The notes under the pieces are model-generated. The model ran no database searches. It was not told the origin of the DNA and saw nothing but the letters and a program-made list of their open reading frames with translations. Shown here one piece after another: positions 51,927 through 58,196 of a stretch of DNA of 64,000 nucleotides; positions within the stretch are counted from its first letter, which is position 1, and each line of letters starts with the position of its first letter. The position numbers and the translations under genes are program-made. Origin of the DNA: Sulfobacillus thermosulfidooxidans DSM 9293 (lineage in GTDB: Bacteria; Bacillota; Sulfobacillia; Sulfobacillales; Sulfobacillaceae); the NCBI RefSeq assembly GCF_900176145.1, contig NZ_FWWY01000001.1, positions 2,849,444-2,913,443 of the forward strand, read 5' to 3'.

Positions 51927-52394
51927 GTGGAACATATCACCAACACGGACTCGCATGCATATAAAGAGGGACATCCTATTGAAAGTCTCATGAAAACCGC
52001 CATGGAATCGATTAAAGGCATGATTGATGTGAATACGGTGGTGGGTCAACCAGTTCAGACGCCTGATGGCGGCACAATTATTCCGGTGTCACGTGTTTCC
52101 TTTGGATTTGCCGCGGGGGGTGGTGAATATTGGAAACGCGAAAGTGACGGGCCTGGGCATCCTTTTGGCGGTGGGAGTGGAGCCGGAGTGACGGTTCATC
52201 CCGTGGGATTTCTGGTGGCTCATGGAGACAATGTCCGGTTACTCTCTGTCGATCGCGGAGATGTGCTCGAATCGATTGTGAATAATGTGCCTCAACTTAT
52301 CGACCAAATCCAGCATCTCATCAGCGGCAACAGTAAACCGAAGGCCCAAGACCACACCACAACGCTGGTCGATCCCCAAGACTTGTCTCAATAG
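51927..52394 (+). CDS. ytfJ: GerW-family sporulation protein YtfJ
   Basis: A 155-residue protein with the YtfJ pattern HPIESLMKTAMESIKGMIDV, VGQPVQTPDGGTIIPVSRV and glycine-rich FGGGSGAGVTVHPVGFLV. It acts in spore formation or germination. GTG at 51927 is preferred since GGAG lies nine bases upstream; the frame is open a further 22 codons. It ends 10 bases before Ku. Confidence 0.9.
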   Translation: MEHITNTDSHAYKEGHPIESLMKTAMESIKGMIDVNTVVGQPVQTPDGGTIIPVSRVSFGFAAGGGEYWKRESDGPGHPFGGGSGAGVTVHPVGFLVAHGDNVRLLSVDRGDVLESIVNNVPQLIDQIQHLISGNSKPKAQDHTTTLVDPQDLSQ

Positions 52395-52404
52395 GGGGAC
52401 GCTC

Positions 52405-53172
52405 GTGAGAAGCCTGTATAAAGGGGTTATTGGTTTTGGTCTGGTCTCTATCCCCATCCAGGTGTATAAAGCGATGGATGATGAGAAAGTGGAGATTCAT
52501 TGGCTTCACAAGGTGTGTGGATCCAGGATTCAATATCGCAAATATTGTCCCATCTGCCATGTTGAAGTCGAACCCGGTGAAATTGTGCGAGGGGCTCCTG
52601 TACCGGATGGACGTTATGTGGTGCTCGAGGATCAGGACATCATCCAACCGTCGAAAGACCATAACGTGACCATCATGAGTTTTCATCTGTTAGATGCCAT
52701 TGATCCGGTTTATTTCCGGCAAGCCTACTGGCTAAAACCTCTGCCAGGTGGGCACAAGGCTTACCGGTTATTAGCGGAGACAATGCAGGATACGCATTTA
52801 GTCGCGTTGGCGGAGCTGACGCTTCGCTCTAAGCCGTCCTTAGCCGTGGTCCGGACCTTTCACTCGTCGACCTTGATGATGCACACCCTGTATTTTCCGG
52901 AAAGTTTGCGTGAAGAAGGAAAAAACTTTGGTGATGTATCCGTGCAAATATCTGACAAAGAACGGGATATGGCCATAATGTTAGTGAAACAAATGCAGGA
53001 GCCATTTGTCCCCGAACGCTATCCCAATGAAGCCAAGCGAGAGCTGTTAGAACGGATACAAGCATTAATGCCCTCAGCAATAACCCCGGAGGAAACCCAT
53101 ACAACCCGGGAGGTGATGTCCTTGATGGAACAATTACGGGCATCAGTGTCGCAGACAGCCCAAAGGGTATGA
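52405..53172 (+). CDS. ku: Ku protein (NHEJ)
   Basis: A 255-residue bacterial Ku homodimer protein: YKGVIGFGLVSIPIQVYKA at the N-terminus, and a zinc-type CX2C pair in YCPICHVEV. It binds DNA ends for non-homologous end joining. GTG at 52405 follows GGGGGAC; a longer upstream reading overlaps ytfJ in another frame. Its end overlaps the ligase gene by four bases. Confidence 0.95.
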   Translation: MRSLYKGVIGFGLVSIPIQVYKAMDDEKVEIHWLHKVCGSRIQYRKYCPICHVEVEPGEIVRGAPVPDGRYVVLEDQDIIQPSKDHNVTIMSFHLLDAIDPVYFRQAYWLKPLPGGHKAYRLLAETMQDTHLVALAELTLRSKPSLAVVRTFHSSTLMMHTLYFPESLREEGKNFGDVSVQISDKERDMAIMLVKQMQEPFVPERYPNEAKRELLERIQALMPSAITPEETHTTREVMSLMEQLRASVSQTAQRV

Positions 53173-54002
53173 GAGATCCTCACACCTTCATTGCTCCCAT
53201 GTTGGCGGTTACCGTACCTCATCCCTTTGATGATGTCCAGTGGCGGTATGAAATTAAATGGGATGGTTACCGCTGTCAAATCCATTGGACCGACCATCTC
53301 CAAATCTTTTCGCGTAAGGGAGAAAGCTTACTCAGGCAATTTCCGGATTTATCGGATGTTGCTAAGGTGCTCGATCGGCCTGTCATTTTAGATGGGGAGT
53401 TGATTGCGTGGGAGAATGGCAAACCGTCTTTTTCGGCTCTTCAACGACGTCATGTGGGGGAGCACCGAGTGATTGTGTTTGACTGTTTATATGCCGAGGG
53501 TGAATGGCTTTTGACCAAACCGCTGAAAACACGCCTTGAATATTTGAATAATGTGGTGTCAACGCAGGGAAAAATTGTCGTGGCGGATGGTGTGGTCGAA
53601 CAGGGCATGGCGTTGTGGAAGGCGGCCAGGGAACATGGTCTTGAAGGGGTCATGGCGAAGCACTTAAACAGTCCCTATTTGCCAGGCAAACGCGTGAGGA
53701 CATGGCAAAAATTTTTGGTGATGAACCGTCAGTGGGCCGTAGTCCCTATCATTTCAGAAGCCGAGGACGGTCAGTGGATGTGGTGGGTGAGTGGGGACAA
53801 TGCCGGTGGACATGTGATGACGAAATTATTAGCCCCTAAAAACTGGAATGTAGACGTTTCATCATTGGTCAGGGAAAAAAGAGGGACGGATATCGTCTGG
53901 CGCTTACCCTGTCCCATTGACGTGGAAGTCGAATACCGAGAACTCACAGCAGAAGGAAAGATGCGGCATGGTCGAATTCGTCAATGGCGAACATCGAATT
54001 AG
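53169..54002 (+). CDS. ligD: ATP-dependent DNA ligase (LigD ligase domain, stand-alone)
   Basis: A 277-residue ligase with nucleotidyltransferase motif YEIKWDGYR (Lys adenylation), FSRKGESL, LDGELI, FDCLYAEG and EGVMAKHLNSPY, then a small OB-fold part. In many bacteria this domain is fused with polymerase and phosphoesterase as LigD; here it stands alone. It seals breaks in Ku-dependent end joining. The polymerase gene starts 35 bases before its end. Confidence 0.93.
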   Translation: MRDPHTFIAPMLAVTVPHPFDDVQWRYEIKWDGYRCQIHWTDHLQIFSRKGESLLRQFPDLSDVAKVLDRPVILDGELIAWENGKPSFSALQRRHVGEHRVIVFDCLYAEGEWLLTKPLKTRLEYLNNVVSTQGKIVVADGVVEQGMALWKAAREHGLEGVMAKHLNSPYLPGKRVRTWQKFLVMNRQWAVVPIISEAEDGQWMWWVSGDNAGGHVMTKLLAPKNWNVDVSSLVREKRGTDIVWRLPCPIDVEVEYRELTAEGKMRHGRIRQWRTSN

Positions 54003-54861
54003 CCTTCATGTTTCGCACCCTGAGCGGGTGTTATTCCCAGAAATCGGGGTGACCCGGCTCGATTTATTGGACTATTATGCTGCCGTGAGCTCGGTGATTT
54101 TGCCGCACTATTCGCATCGTGCTTTGACGGTGAAACGGTGGCCCCATGGAATTCACGGGCCGATGTTTTATCAAAAACATGAGCGGGTTCGGACCAATGC
54201 CTCGCAGATGATTCAAATTTATTCATGGAAAGAATTGTTACAATGGGTGGCACTGGGGGTTATTGAATGGCATGTTCCGCTCGGTTTAATTGAGGAACCG
54301 GACCAGCATGATTGGGCAGTTTTCGATTTGGATCCCCATGAGGTAGGGTGGGAGAAAGTCGCAGAGGCAACAAAAATCATGGCCAAACTTTTGGAATTAC
54401 TCCGTATTCCTTATCTTCTAAAAACCTCGGGTCATAAAGGGATGCATATTTATATTCGAATTGAGCCTGAACCCTCTGAAACCGTAACCATGGCGTGTCA
54501 TCTTATTGCCGAGATCGCTGTCAAGAGCTACCCTCATTTATTCACCACAGAACGTCTAAAAGTTAAGCGAGGACAACGGGTCTATATCGATTTCTTGCAA
54601 AACGGATATCACCGGACTATGGCGGGAGTCTACAGCGTGCGCGCGGTTGAGACGGCATCTGTTTCCTGTCCTGTCATGCTTGACGAAGTGGATATTTTGC
54701 CCACGTGGTGGACAATGCCGCGTGTTATAGAACGAATTGGGCGCTATGGTGATCTTTTCGGCGTTTTTACACCTGTCATTTCTTTACGCCAGCATCTTAA
54801 AGATCAAGGAATCATGGTTCCTCCCACCTTAAATCACTCGTTGGAGGGTGGGGGCCAATGA
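53968..54861 (+). CDS. ligD: LigD-type DNA polymerase/primase, stand-alone
   Basis: A 297-residue archaeo-eukaryotic primase-superfamily polymerase: HPERVLFPEIGVTRLDLLDYY, the metal motif FDLDPH, the SGHKGMHIYI triphosphate site and VYIDFLQN with YSVRA. It fills ends with ribo- or deoxyribonucleotides during NHEJ. ATG 53968 lies within the ligase 3' end, with GAAGGAAAG upstream. No phosphoesterase module is seen. It ends overlapping the helicase gene by four bases. Confidence 0.92.
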   Translation: MVEFVNGEHRISLHVSHPERVLFPEIGVTRLDLLDYYAAVSSVILPHYSHRALTVKRWPHGIHGPMFYQKHERVRTNASQMIQIYSWKELLQWVALGVIEWHVPLGLIEEPDQHDWAVFDLDPHEVGWEKVAEATKIMAKLLELLRIPYLLKTSGHKGMHIYIRIEPEPSETVTMACHLIAEIAVKSYPHLFTTERLKVKRGQRVYIDFLQNGYHRTMAGVYSVRAVETASVSCPVMLDEVDILPTWWTMPRVIERIGRYGDLFGVFTPVISLRQHLKDQGIMVPPTLNHSLEGGGQ

Positions 54862-56486
54862 CCAGAAAATCGCGACAAACGCCGTCTCTTGAGCACTTAA
54901 TGGGCCATCTTCATTGTTGGCCGACGATCGCTCCTTTTGTCGACAAGGGGCTGTCTTTGCACAGTTATCAAATCGACAGTGTGTTAACGGTGGTCAATCA
55001 TCTTCAAGGTCGAGCCATTTTAGCTGATGAAGTGGGACTTGGCAAAACCATTGAGGCGGGATTAATTATCGCAGAATTGAAGGCTCAAGGTCTTGTCGAT
55101 CGGGTCTTGATCTTAGTGCCAGCGGGGTTGATTACCCAATGGATTCAAGAACTAAAAAATAAGTTTGGCTGGCAAGCGTTACACAATGCGCATGATCAAG
55201 GATGGTTGTGGGTATTATCCATTGATACGGCTAAACGACCTCCCCTTTATCAACAATTACAATATGTGCCTTGGGACTTAGTCATTGTCGATGAGGCGCA
55301 TCACCTGAAGAATACGAAGACCTTAAATTACCAGTTGGTGGAAGGCCTTCAGTCGCGGTATTTAGTCTTACTAACGGCCACACCGATGGAAAATGAATTG
55401 ACAGAATTATATACCCTGGTCAACTTGGTGAAACCCGGATTATTTGGCAATTATTTACGTTTTTATCGCCAATTTATCTTGGACAAACGGACGCCTAAAA
55501 ATGCACGGGCATTAAAAAAGTTATTGTCTCAAGTGATGGTTCGCAATCAACGACAGGACGTGGGATTATCGTTGCCTCCCCGTGAAGTCACATTATGGCC
55601 CATTGTACTCAGTGAGGCAGAACGCCGCCTGTATGACACGATGACCCACGCTTTGAAGGTGGAATACCGCCAGCGCCTTCAAGGCAATCAGACGGTGCTG
55701 CCTTTAATTACGTTGCAACGAGAATTATGTTCGTCACCGCAGGCCCTAATTCCGACGTTGGAATCCTCCACCTGGTTAGGATCCCTCCAAGAAGAACTGT
55801 TAGAGCTGGCCCGGTCCATCCCGGTGACCGCCAAAATTCGAGCGATTAGTGATTTGATTCGAGTGATTGGAGGTAAAGTGCTCATTTTTACGGAATACCG
55901 GGCCAGTCAGCAAATGATTGTCGACTTCTTAAGGGATCAAGGCATTTTGGCTGAAGCTTTTCATGGAGGATTAACCCGCACTGAGCGTGACCGCTTGATT
56001 GCCTGGTTTGCCGACGGGGACCATGTCTTAGTATCCACAGAGGCTGGTGGACAGGGATTAAACCTGCAATTTTGTCACCAGTTAATTAACTTTGACTTAC
56101 CCTGGAATCCCATGCGTATTGAGCAGCGTATCGGTCGGGTTCACCGCATGGGCCAAGAACATCCGGTGGAAATTTACAACTTGTTCACGGTTGACACCAT
56201 TGAAGAAAATATATTACATCTACTGCATGAGAAAATTGATTTGTTTCGCCATGTGATTGGGGAACTTGATGTGATTCTCAGACATTTAGAACGCCGAGGA
56301 AGCCTGGAAAAACGGTTGCTGGATATCTTTTTCTGGGAAGATGATCGCAAAGCTATTGAAATGCGTTTAGAGGCTTTGGGCCAAGAGTTTTTAGCGGCGC
56401 GCCGGCGTCTGAGTTGGCCACATCTGGACAAATCCTCCACGTCGCCTGAGTCAACGGGGCAAAATCCGAAAGAATCTGTTAACTGA
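54858..56486 (+). CDS. SNF2-family DNA-dependent ATPase in the NHEJ operon
   Basis: A 542-residue SF2 translocase with Walker A ADEVGLGKTIEAG, DEAH box VDEAHHLKN, motif III LLTATPMENE, motif IV-V (FTEYRASQQ, STEAGGQGLNLQF) and motif VI RIGRVHRMGQ. This is the RapA/HepA-type catalytic core without extra domains apart from a helical C-terminus. It is translationally coupled to the LigD polymerase (ATGA), so it probably remodels DNA ends or clears proteins during end joining; that role is inference. Confidence 0.87.
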   Translation: MTRKSRQTPSLEHLMGHLHCWPTIAPFVDKGLSLHSYQIDSVLTVVNHLQGRAILADEVGLGKTIEAGLIIAELKAQGLVDRVLILVPAGLITQWIQELKNKFGWQALHNAHDQGWLWVLSIDTAKRPPLYQQLQYVPWDLVIVDEAHHLKNTKTLNYQLVEGLQSRYLVLLTATPMENELTELYTLVNLVKPGLFGNYLRFYRQFILDKRTPKNARALKKLLSQVMVRNQRQDVGLSLPPREVTLWPIVLSEAERRLYDTMTHALKVEYRQRLQGNQTVLPLITLQRELCSSPQALIPTLESSTWLGSLQEELLELARSIPVTAKIRAISDLIRVIGGKVLIFTEYRASQQMIVDFLRDQGILAEAFHGGLTRTERDRLIAWFADGDHVLVSTEAGGQGLNLQFCHQLINFDLPWNPMRIEQRIGRVHRMGQEHPVEIYNLFTVDTIEENILHLLHEKIDLFRHVIGELDVILRHLERRGSLEKRLLDIFFWEDDRKAIEMRLEALGQEFLAARRRLSWPHLDKSSTSPESTGQNPKESVN

Positions 56487-56511: not shown

Positions 56512-56659
56512 GTCTGGTACAACGTACCAAAGATTCGGGGTGACCCATTGACCCTCGGTGTCATAAAGTATCAGCAACGAGGGAACTCAGTGATGTTCTC
56601 AACAAGTTTTCATGGCATTGTGGAGTGTGTGATCTGATTATTGGCAGCGAGGGACAACT

Positions 56660-57328
56660 ATGGGATTTTTAAATGAACGGGATCGGCAAACCTTGGCAGA
56701 AATGTTTCGGGACCTCAAATTTCCTGTGCATGTCGATTTGTTTTTGGATCCCGACCAAGAGTGGAGTCAGCATACGCACGGGATTCTCAGTGAAGTGGTC
56801 AGTTTAATGCCGGACCTTTTACATCTTGAAGTCTACGACTTTCACAAAAATCAATTATTAGCCGCCCTCTATGGTGTCGATCACGTTCCGACATTAATTT
56901 TGCGCGACAAAAACGAGGATGATACGGGCATTCGTATTTTAGGGATACCATCAGGTTATGAATTCGCTGTACTCATTGAAGATATTCTCGATGTTTCGGT
57001 TGGCCGCTCTCGGTTGAGTGAGAAGACCATGAATTATATTCGCAATTTGGAACATGATGTGCTGTTGCAAGTTTTTGTAACGCCCACGTGACCGCATTGT
57101 CCCCGGGCGGTTCGCCTGGTCCATCAGATGGCTTTGGCCAATCCGGCAAGAATCCGTGGAGAATCCATCGAGGCTAACGAGTTTGCGGAATGGTCGGAGG
57201 AAGAAGGCGTTTACGCAGTTCCCAAAACGGTTATGACGGTGAAGGATTTAAGTGTGAAACACAGTTTTGAAGGTGCCTTAAGTGAAGATCACTTTATTCG
57301 TCAACTTAAGGGATTACTAGAGCCATGA
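56660..57328 (+). CDS. Thioredoxin/glutaredoxin-like protein disulfide oxidoreductase, candidate selenoprotein (in-frame UGA)
   Basis: The frame opens at 56660, meets TGA at codon 144 (57089-57091), and stays open in the same frame to 57328, giving 222 residues if read through. The protein has two thioredoxin units. The first has GVDHVPTLIL (cis-Pro) and GIPSGYEF but no active-site cysteines (EWSQH). The second reads FVTPT-UGA-PHCPRAV with a later YAVPKTV cis-Pro, so UGA is in the place of the first Cys of the C-P-H-C site. A SECIS-like hairpin follows at proper distance. I read it as U144-x-x-C147; a nonsense-mutated pseudogene is the alternative. Nothing suggests that the second half has its own start. 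Confidence 0.7.
57089..57119 (+). promoter_or_regulatory. Candidate bacterial SECIS element following the UGA codon
   Basis: After the TGA at 57089-57091, bases 57103-57109 (CCGGGCG) pair with 57113-57119 (CGCCTGG) as a 7-bp stem including one G-U pair. The loop is GTT (57110-57112), with the loop apex 19-21 bases from the UGA. Bacterial SECIS elements have a G-containing small loop on a short stem about this far from the UGA, inside the coding region. The hairpin alone does not prove SelB binding. Confidence 0.6.
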
Positions 57329-57341
57329 GAGGAGCCTTTCG

Positions 57342-58196
57342 GTGTCACGGATCACGTGTTTAGAAACCTTGGACGCGATGAAGCGCTTTCGCGATAGTGT
57401 CCCGTCCCATCAAAAAGTGGCGTTAGTGCCGACAATGGGCGCGTTACATGCCGGTCATTTGGCGTTGGTGGAACAGGCCAAGACGTTGGCGCCTGTTGTC
57501 ATTGTTAGCATTTTCGTCAATCCCATGCAATTTGGACCGCATGAAGATTTCGAGAAGTACCCGCGTAATTTAGAGAACGATTTATCGATTTTAGAGCCTT
57601 ATCATCCGCTTACGGTATTTGCTCCTTCGGTTATGGAAATGTATCCGCATGGACCCAGTCGCACGATCATTACAGTACCTTCGATGACCACGGTCATGTG
57701 TGGATTAGGCCGGCCAGGCCATTTTGATGGGGTCGCGACGGTTGTCGCCAAGCTATTTAATATTACGCGGCCCCATATGGCTTTGTTTGGACAAAAAGAT
57801 GCTCAACAGCTTGCCATTATCAAACAGCTCGTCGAGGATTTAAATTTTCCCATCAAGATTATTGGCGTACCGACCGTGAGAGAGACATCGGGTCTGGCCA
57901 TGTCCTCACGCAATCAATATTTAACGCCGTCACAAAAAGAACAGGCCGCGTTTCTTTATCAGGGTCTATATGCGGCGCAGGTACTGTTTGAGAACGGGGA
58001 ACGTAGAGCAAATCAGCTGATACACAAAGTTCAACAGGTCCTACAAAGTCAGAACATCGATCCCGAATATATTGCTCTTGTCGACCAACGAACACTCGAA
58101 CCCATTGAGGTGATTACAGATTCTCCTGCCTTGATAGCTCTTGCTGCGCGCATCGGACAAGCCCGTTTAATTGATAATGTTGTATTGGTGCCCTAG
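57342..58196 (+). CDS. panC: Pantothenate synthetase (pantoate-beta-alanine ligase)
   Basis: A 284-residue enzyme: VALVPTMGALHAGHLALV with the HxGH motif, SIFVNPMQFGPHEDF, GQKDAQQLAIIKQ and SSRNQYLTP. It joins pantoate with beta-alanine. The start is GTG with GAGGAG upstream; it follows the redox protein by 13 bases and may be co-transcribed. No panB or panD lies in the window. Confidence 0.96.
   Translation: MSRITCLETLDAMKRFRDSVPSHQKVALVPTMGALHAGHLALVEQAKTLAPVVIVSIFVNPMQFGPHEDFEKYPRNLENDLSILEPYHPLTVFAPSVMEMYPHGPSRTIITVPSMTTVMCGLGRPGHFDGVATVVAKLFNITRPHMALFGQKDAQQLAIIKQLVEDLNFPIKIIGVPTVRETSGLAMSSRNQYLTPSQKEQAAFLYQGLYAAQVLFENGERRANQLIHKVQQVLQSQNIDPEYIALVDQRTLEPIEVITDSPALIALAARIGQARLIDNVVLVP

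Follow-up and report, generated by a model that had tools for sequence, protein, structure and literature searches.

The protein disulfide oxidoreductases (PDOs) of Pyrococcus furiosus (1A8L) and Aquifex (2AYT), which have two domains, are similar to the protein described here in both full-length sequence and fold. The P. furiosus enzyme has two CxxC sites with cysteine in all positions, whereas the present protein has the C-terminal site alone, in which the first Cys is predicted to be replaced by selenocysteine (Sec). The N-terminal domain of AhpF (1ZYN, 6IL7) has the same double thioredoxin fold. Unlike AhpF, however, the present protein carries no fused flavin reductase domain and scores far under the AhpF cut-offs; the AhpF model gave 68 bits against a cut-off of 502.9, matched in its N-terminal part only, so the protein was not assigned to that family. 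A Sec-containing form is known as well. The "homolog of AhpF N-terminal domain (Grx-like domain protein)", TIGR02187 with a UxxC site, is included in selenoprotein lists and was predicted with high confidence in Carboxydothermus hydrogenoformans and Symbiobacterium thermophilum, and the same three papers (PMC1794560, PMC9312934, PMC13188914) do not list Sulfobacillus for this family. Within the genus, every Sulfobacillus genome studied at the time was reported to encode Sec formate dehydrogenases (PMC4378227), and the Sec peroxiredoxin PrxU was detected by proteomics in S. thermotolerans (PMC7409299). The protein type, its recoding and the use of Sec in Sulfobacillus are already described, and the name of the NCBI model, PDO_seleno_TRX, itself contains "seleno".

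In the 64,000-nt stretch of the Sulfobacillus thermosulfidooxidans DSM 9293 genome analysed here (the window), an in-frame UGA almost certainly gives a thioredoxin-like enzyme of two domains a Sec residue at its active site, as judged from sequence comparison. The gene is intact and adds an unexceptional member to the reviewed selenoprotein family. It shares with the Carboxydothermus and Symbiobacterium case the TIGR02187 assignment, the C-terminal UxxC Sec and a downstream bacterial SECIS (bSECIS), but differs from it in the genus, in the presence of four Sec paralogues in one genome and in the loss of the N-terminal CxxC. Besides the latter two features, repeated Sec/Cys switches and an apparent SECIS relic in a Cys orthologue are added to what is known of the family.

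Reading frame, fold and redox site

When read through, the frame encodes 222 residues from the ATG at 56660 to the terminal TGA at 57326-57328 (Table 1). Translation bore out the claim of the earlier note that the frame is broken by the TGA at codon 144 alone and is then open to its end. The surrounding motif is VFVTPT-U-PHCPRAV, and YAVPKTV with a conserved Pro lies further downstream, in the part of the thioredoxin unit that the same note had described as intact. This Pro188 presumably corresponds to the cis-Pro that lies opposite the redox pair in thioredoxin folds. A third point of that note, the lack of a ribosome site for the downstream part, also held: the only start of the 66-aa downstream ORF (57128-57328) is an internal ATG at 57128, and no purine-rich site was found in GGCGGTTCGCCTGGTCCATCAG, the stretch before it.

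The match to TIGR02187 (PDO_seleno_TRX, NCBIfam; cut-off 185 bits) scored 210.8 bits, covered model positions 2-207 of 209 and spanned the TGA, and Pfam Thioredoxin_3 was matched at residues 136-193. The closest solved structures are the PDOs of P. furiosus (1a8l, E 9.5e-39) and P. horikoshii (1j08, E about 1e-38), in which the CPYC cysteine aligns with the TGA. The proposed correspondence of the PHC region with the CPxC site of disulfide oxidoreductases thus agrees with both the family match and the 1a8l alignment. A structure model obtained from the locus alignment (pLDDT 95, pTM 0.91) superposed on 1a8l with a TM score of 0.94 and an rmsd of 1.4 Å, and both the model and the superposition support two thioredoxin-type units. 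The C-terminal C/U-x-x-C site required for TIGR02187 is present as U144-P-H-C147. No CxxC was found in the N-terminal unit of the window PDO, so it has one redox pair and not two; among the members examined, the N-terminal CxxC is kept only in the class-level relatives L044-L047 and L050.

Table 1. Coordinates of the PDO gene, its functional positions and its neighbours, numbered from the first nucleotide of the window
Feature	Position	Strand	Remarks
SNF2/DEAD-type helicase, upstream syntenic neighbour	54858..56486	+	ORF list, synteny
Predicted PDO selenoprotein gene	56660..57328	+	TIGR02187 member, 222 aa, predicted Sec144; second TGA is the true stop
TGA predicted to be read as Sec144	57089..57091	+	Opens the U-P-H-C redox site of the C-terminal unit; aligns with the first Cys of 1a8l CPYC
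Resolving Cys147 (TGT) of the UxxC pair	57098..57100	+	Alignment column at least 90% conserved
Bacterial SECIS, 17-nt hairpin CCGGGCG-GTT-CGCCTGG	57103..57119	+	11 nt past the UGA; conservation and covariation
Pro188, VP motif	57221..57223	+	Invariant in the family alignment
panC (putative pantothenate synthetase), downstream syntenic neighbour	57342..58196	+	Starts 13 nt past the PDO stop

A recoded genetic code was also considered and rejected, since UGA terminates normal genes as well. Five of the 11 neighbouring genes checked in the window end with TGA, which is therefore an ordinary stop there and argues for context-dependent recoding at codon 144. The downstream neighbour is taken to be panC on the basis of sequence motifs and general knowledge. 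Within the genus, and likewise in relatives at the family and order level, the order helicase-PDO-panC is maintained, whether the PDO has Sec or Cys. Farther upstream (52285-54861), a Ku-like protein precedes individual ORFs of the ATP-dependent ligase-like and LigD polymerase-like kinds, which, named from sequence by eye, correspond to a split bacterial NHEJ operon.

Selenocysteine machinery and SECIS hairpin

The sel genes, proposed earlier as a check of the Sec reading, were all found in the genome of this strain (3.86 Mb, two contigs). These are selA (L021, 556 bits vs cut-off 268), selB (L014, 358 bits vs cut-off 242), selD (L022, 360 bits vs cut-off 125) and selC, a tRNA-Sec with the anticodon TCA (L001). 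The selD gene has an in-frame TGA of its own near its start, in the motif SKSGUGCK, which we take to be the well-known Sec site of SelD. The UGA within selD thus gives independent support for UGA recoding in this Sulfobacillus genome.

Besides an ordinary tRNA-Cys(GCA) (L102:1404-1478, minus strand), the genome contains a second tRNA-Cys (GCA, U73; L002:1501-1593, plus strand) with a tRNA-Sec-like body, a long variable arm and a long acceptor stem, which scores 49.9 bits to RF01852. This selC*-type tRNA-Cys is also present in ten related genomes (L161-L166, L168-L171), with GCA as the anticodon in every relative checked, and no second SelB was seen alongside it. The L002 tRNA is unable to read UGA by normal pairing, and an opal-suppressor tRNA-Cys was rejected as a candidate because of its GCA anticodon. 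Such tRNAs were described in anaerobic Firmicutes and Proteobacteria (PMC7609411).

The hairpin downstream of the UGA consists of a 7-bp stem and a 3-nt loop GUU with G in the first position, located 18 nt from the UGA. It agrees with the published bSECIS model, which comprises a loop of 3-9 nt, a G at one of its first two positions and a distance of 16-37 nt from the UGA (PMC13188914). As in the bSECIS of the E. coli fdhF type, the hairpin lies just past the UGA and its small apical loop opens with G, but it has a 7-bp stem, a 3-nt loop and no bulge, and it is fitted to the coding sequence for PRAVRL. At this fixed distance, exactly 11 nt past the codon, all six outer pairs form in 50 of 53 UGA loci (five of six pairs in the remaining three) and in one of 16 Cys loci; the difference gives a Fisher p of 2e-11, which is descriptive because the loci are related and the counts are not independent events. 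When synonymous codons were resampled with the peptides held constant, a complete stem was expected in 7.9% of cases for the UGA loci and 2.8% for the Cys loci, and the stem is therefore not a by-product of the amino acid sequence. Stem variants among the UGA loci include CCGGGC/GCCTGG, CCATGT/ACATGG, TCAGGC/GCCTGA, CAGCGC/GCGTTG and CCAGAT/ATCTGG, with compensating pair changes of C-G/T-A, G-C/T-A/C-G, G-C/A-T and C-G/T-A. The loop starts with G in all 53 UGA loci, but this is no independent evidence since the Val codon GTN partly dictates it, and G is also found in the Cys loci. When folded alone, the window hairpin did not exceed shuffled sequences in stability (z about -0.4), and it is conservation and covariation that show the structure. 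An Rfam search of 56600-57400 gave chance matches only.

We are highly confident that the gene encodes a selenoprotein, namely a two-domain PDO in which UGA 144 is decoded as Sec via the SECIS and Sec144-Cys147 is the sole redox pair. The idea that UGA at the redox Cys position stands for Sec, put forward in the earlier note, is supported by the sel genes, the conserved UGA and a SECIS hairpin limited to UGA genes but for the single Cys locus. We hypothesize that Sec-tRNA-Sec is made by SerRS, SelA and SelD and carried by SelB, which, with the ribosome at codon 144, would bind the hairpin and insert Sec. Elongation would then resume and end at the terminal UGA, where a hairpin is absent. The product would be a cytosolic two-domain thioredoxin-fold enzyme, in which the Sec144 selenolate may attack substrate disulfides and Cys147 may resolve the selenenylsulfide, while Pro188 would shape the site. 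Recycling could be performed by a putative upstream reductase, either thioredoxin reductase or an AhpF-like one. The enzyme probably serves thiol/peroxide homeostasis in the acid, metal-rich habitat.

Conservation of the UGA and alternative readings

Relatives of the locus, including those of Sulfobacillus benefaciens, were located in 48 of 61 genomes searched. The homologous codon is TGA in 53 loci, spread over several genera and families, and TGC/TGT in 16. By the motif search, L078, L087, L092 and L093 were not found, L012 and L051 were placed by hand and L091 was dropped. The same-codon TGA in 53 homologous loci is more than chance. Among the same-genus syntenic orthologues, own genome included, seven of eight have TGA, so close relatives do keep the UGA, and one has TGC (L033, genome G001). 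By comparison with the nearest species, whose protein is 96% identical, dN/dS is 0.04 before the TGA and 0.08 after it, and thus the second half is also selected as protein. No decay of the downstream region was seen in the loci compared.

The TGA lies one base away from TGC/TGT, and Cys orthologues such as L033 exist, so it could be a recent nonsense mutation or a sequencing error in a Cys codon, leaving a pseudogene or a truncated 143-aa protein. This is extremely improbable given the TGA kept in most same-genus orthologues and across families, the purifying selection persisting past it, the hairpin maintained with compensating changes and the complete sel set. The point mutation that the earlier note had offered as the alternative is contradicted by this conservation, by the downstream selection and by the covarying hairpin. 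The case in which close strains would show a Cys codon and a decayed second half did not materialise either, because the lone same-genus TGC orthologue has an intact second half. Point mutation, sequencing error and pseudogene are excluded for practical purposes.

It is also very unlikely that near-cognate decoding, or the tRNA-Sec-like tRNA-Cys, inserts another residue (Trp or Cys) at the UGA. The selC*-type tRNA with its tRNA-Sec-like body is indeed present, and some delta-proteobacteria have selC* tRNAs with a UCA anticodon that may be opal suppressors (PMC7609411). However, the GCA anticodon in all relatives checked pairs with UGC/UGU and not with UGA, a standard tRNA-Sec(UCA) and SelB are available, and other genes terminate with TGA. 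That the locus consists of two short genes, one for an N-terminal domain of 143 aa and one for a C-terminal fragment of 66 aa made by re-initiation, has a vanishingly small probability. Although the downstream ORF exists mechanically, it lacks a ribosome site, its product would have no redox pair, fused Cys versions run straight through, and few stretches of the family are as conserved as PHCPRAVRLVHQ, the region from the TGA to 57128.

Paralogues and the Sec/Cys history

The Sec reading of the window gene extends to its paralogues. Four more PDO genes are present in the same genome, three with UGA (L010, UPYC; L012, UTRC; L013, UPKC) and one with Cys (L011, CRWC), which gives four Sec PDO paralogues with the window gene included. 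In L010 (1501-2082), L012 and L013, a hairpin occurs at the same position as in the window gene. A midpoint-rooted tree, whose rooting gives no order for the origin of Sec and Cys, contains at least six Sec/Cys switches on well-supported branches, and eight by parsimony. The Cys orthologue L033, which forms a sister pair with the S. thermotolerans UGA gene (L035), retains a complete SECIS stem, CCGGGCC-GTG-CGCCTGG. On sequence grounds, the simplest reading of L033 is that Sec was recently replaced by Cys and the SECIS is a relic. That SelB and the hairpin still act at its UGC, with the selC*-type tRNA delivering Cys or Sec, is a highly improbable reading. A minority of orthologues have Cys, and Sec is therefore not strictly required.

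Gene callers for which TGA is always a stop would end the protein at residue 143, and the active site would be lost. The close species provide a syntenic natural series of Sec with SECIS, Cys with the presumed relic SECIS and Cys without SECIS. With this series, the costs and benefits of Sec versus Cys become testable in one disulfide oxidoreductase of an acidophile genus. In the syntenic orthologues L043, L051, L057 and L077, the resolving Cys is lost (CPHS) and a single-thiol site is left.
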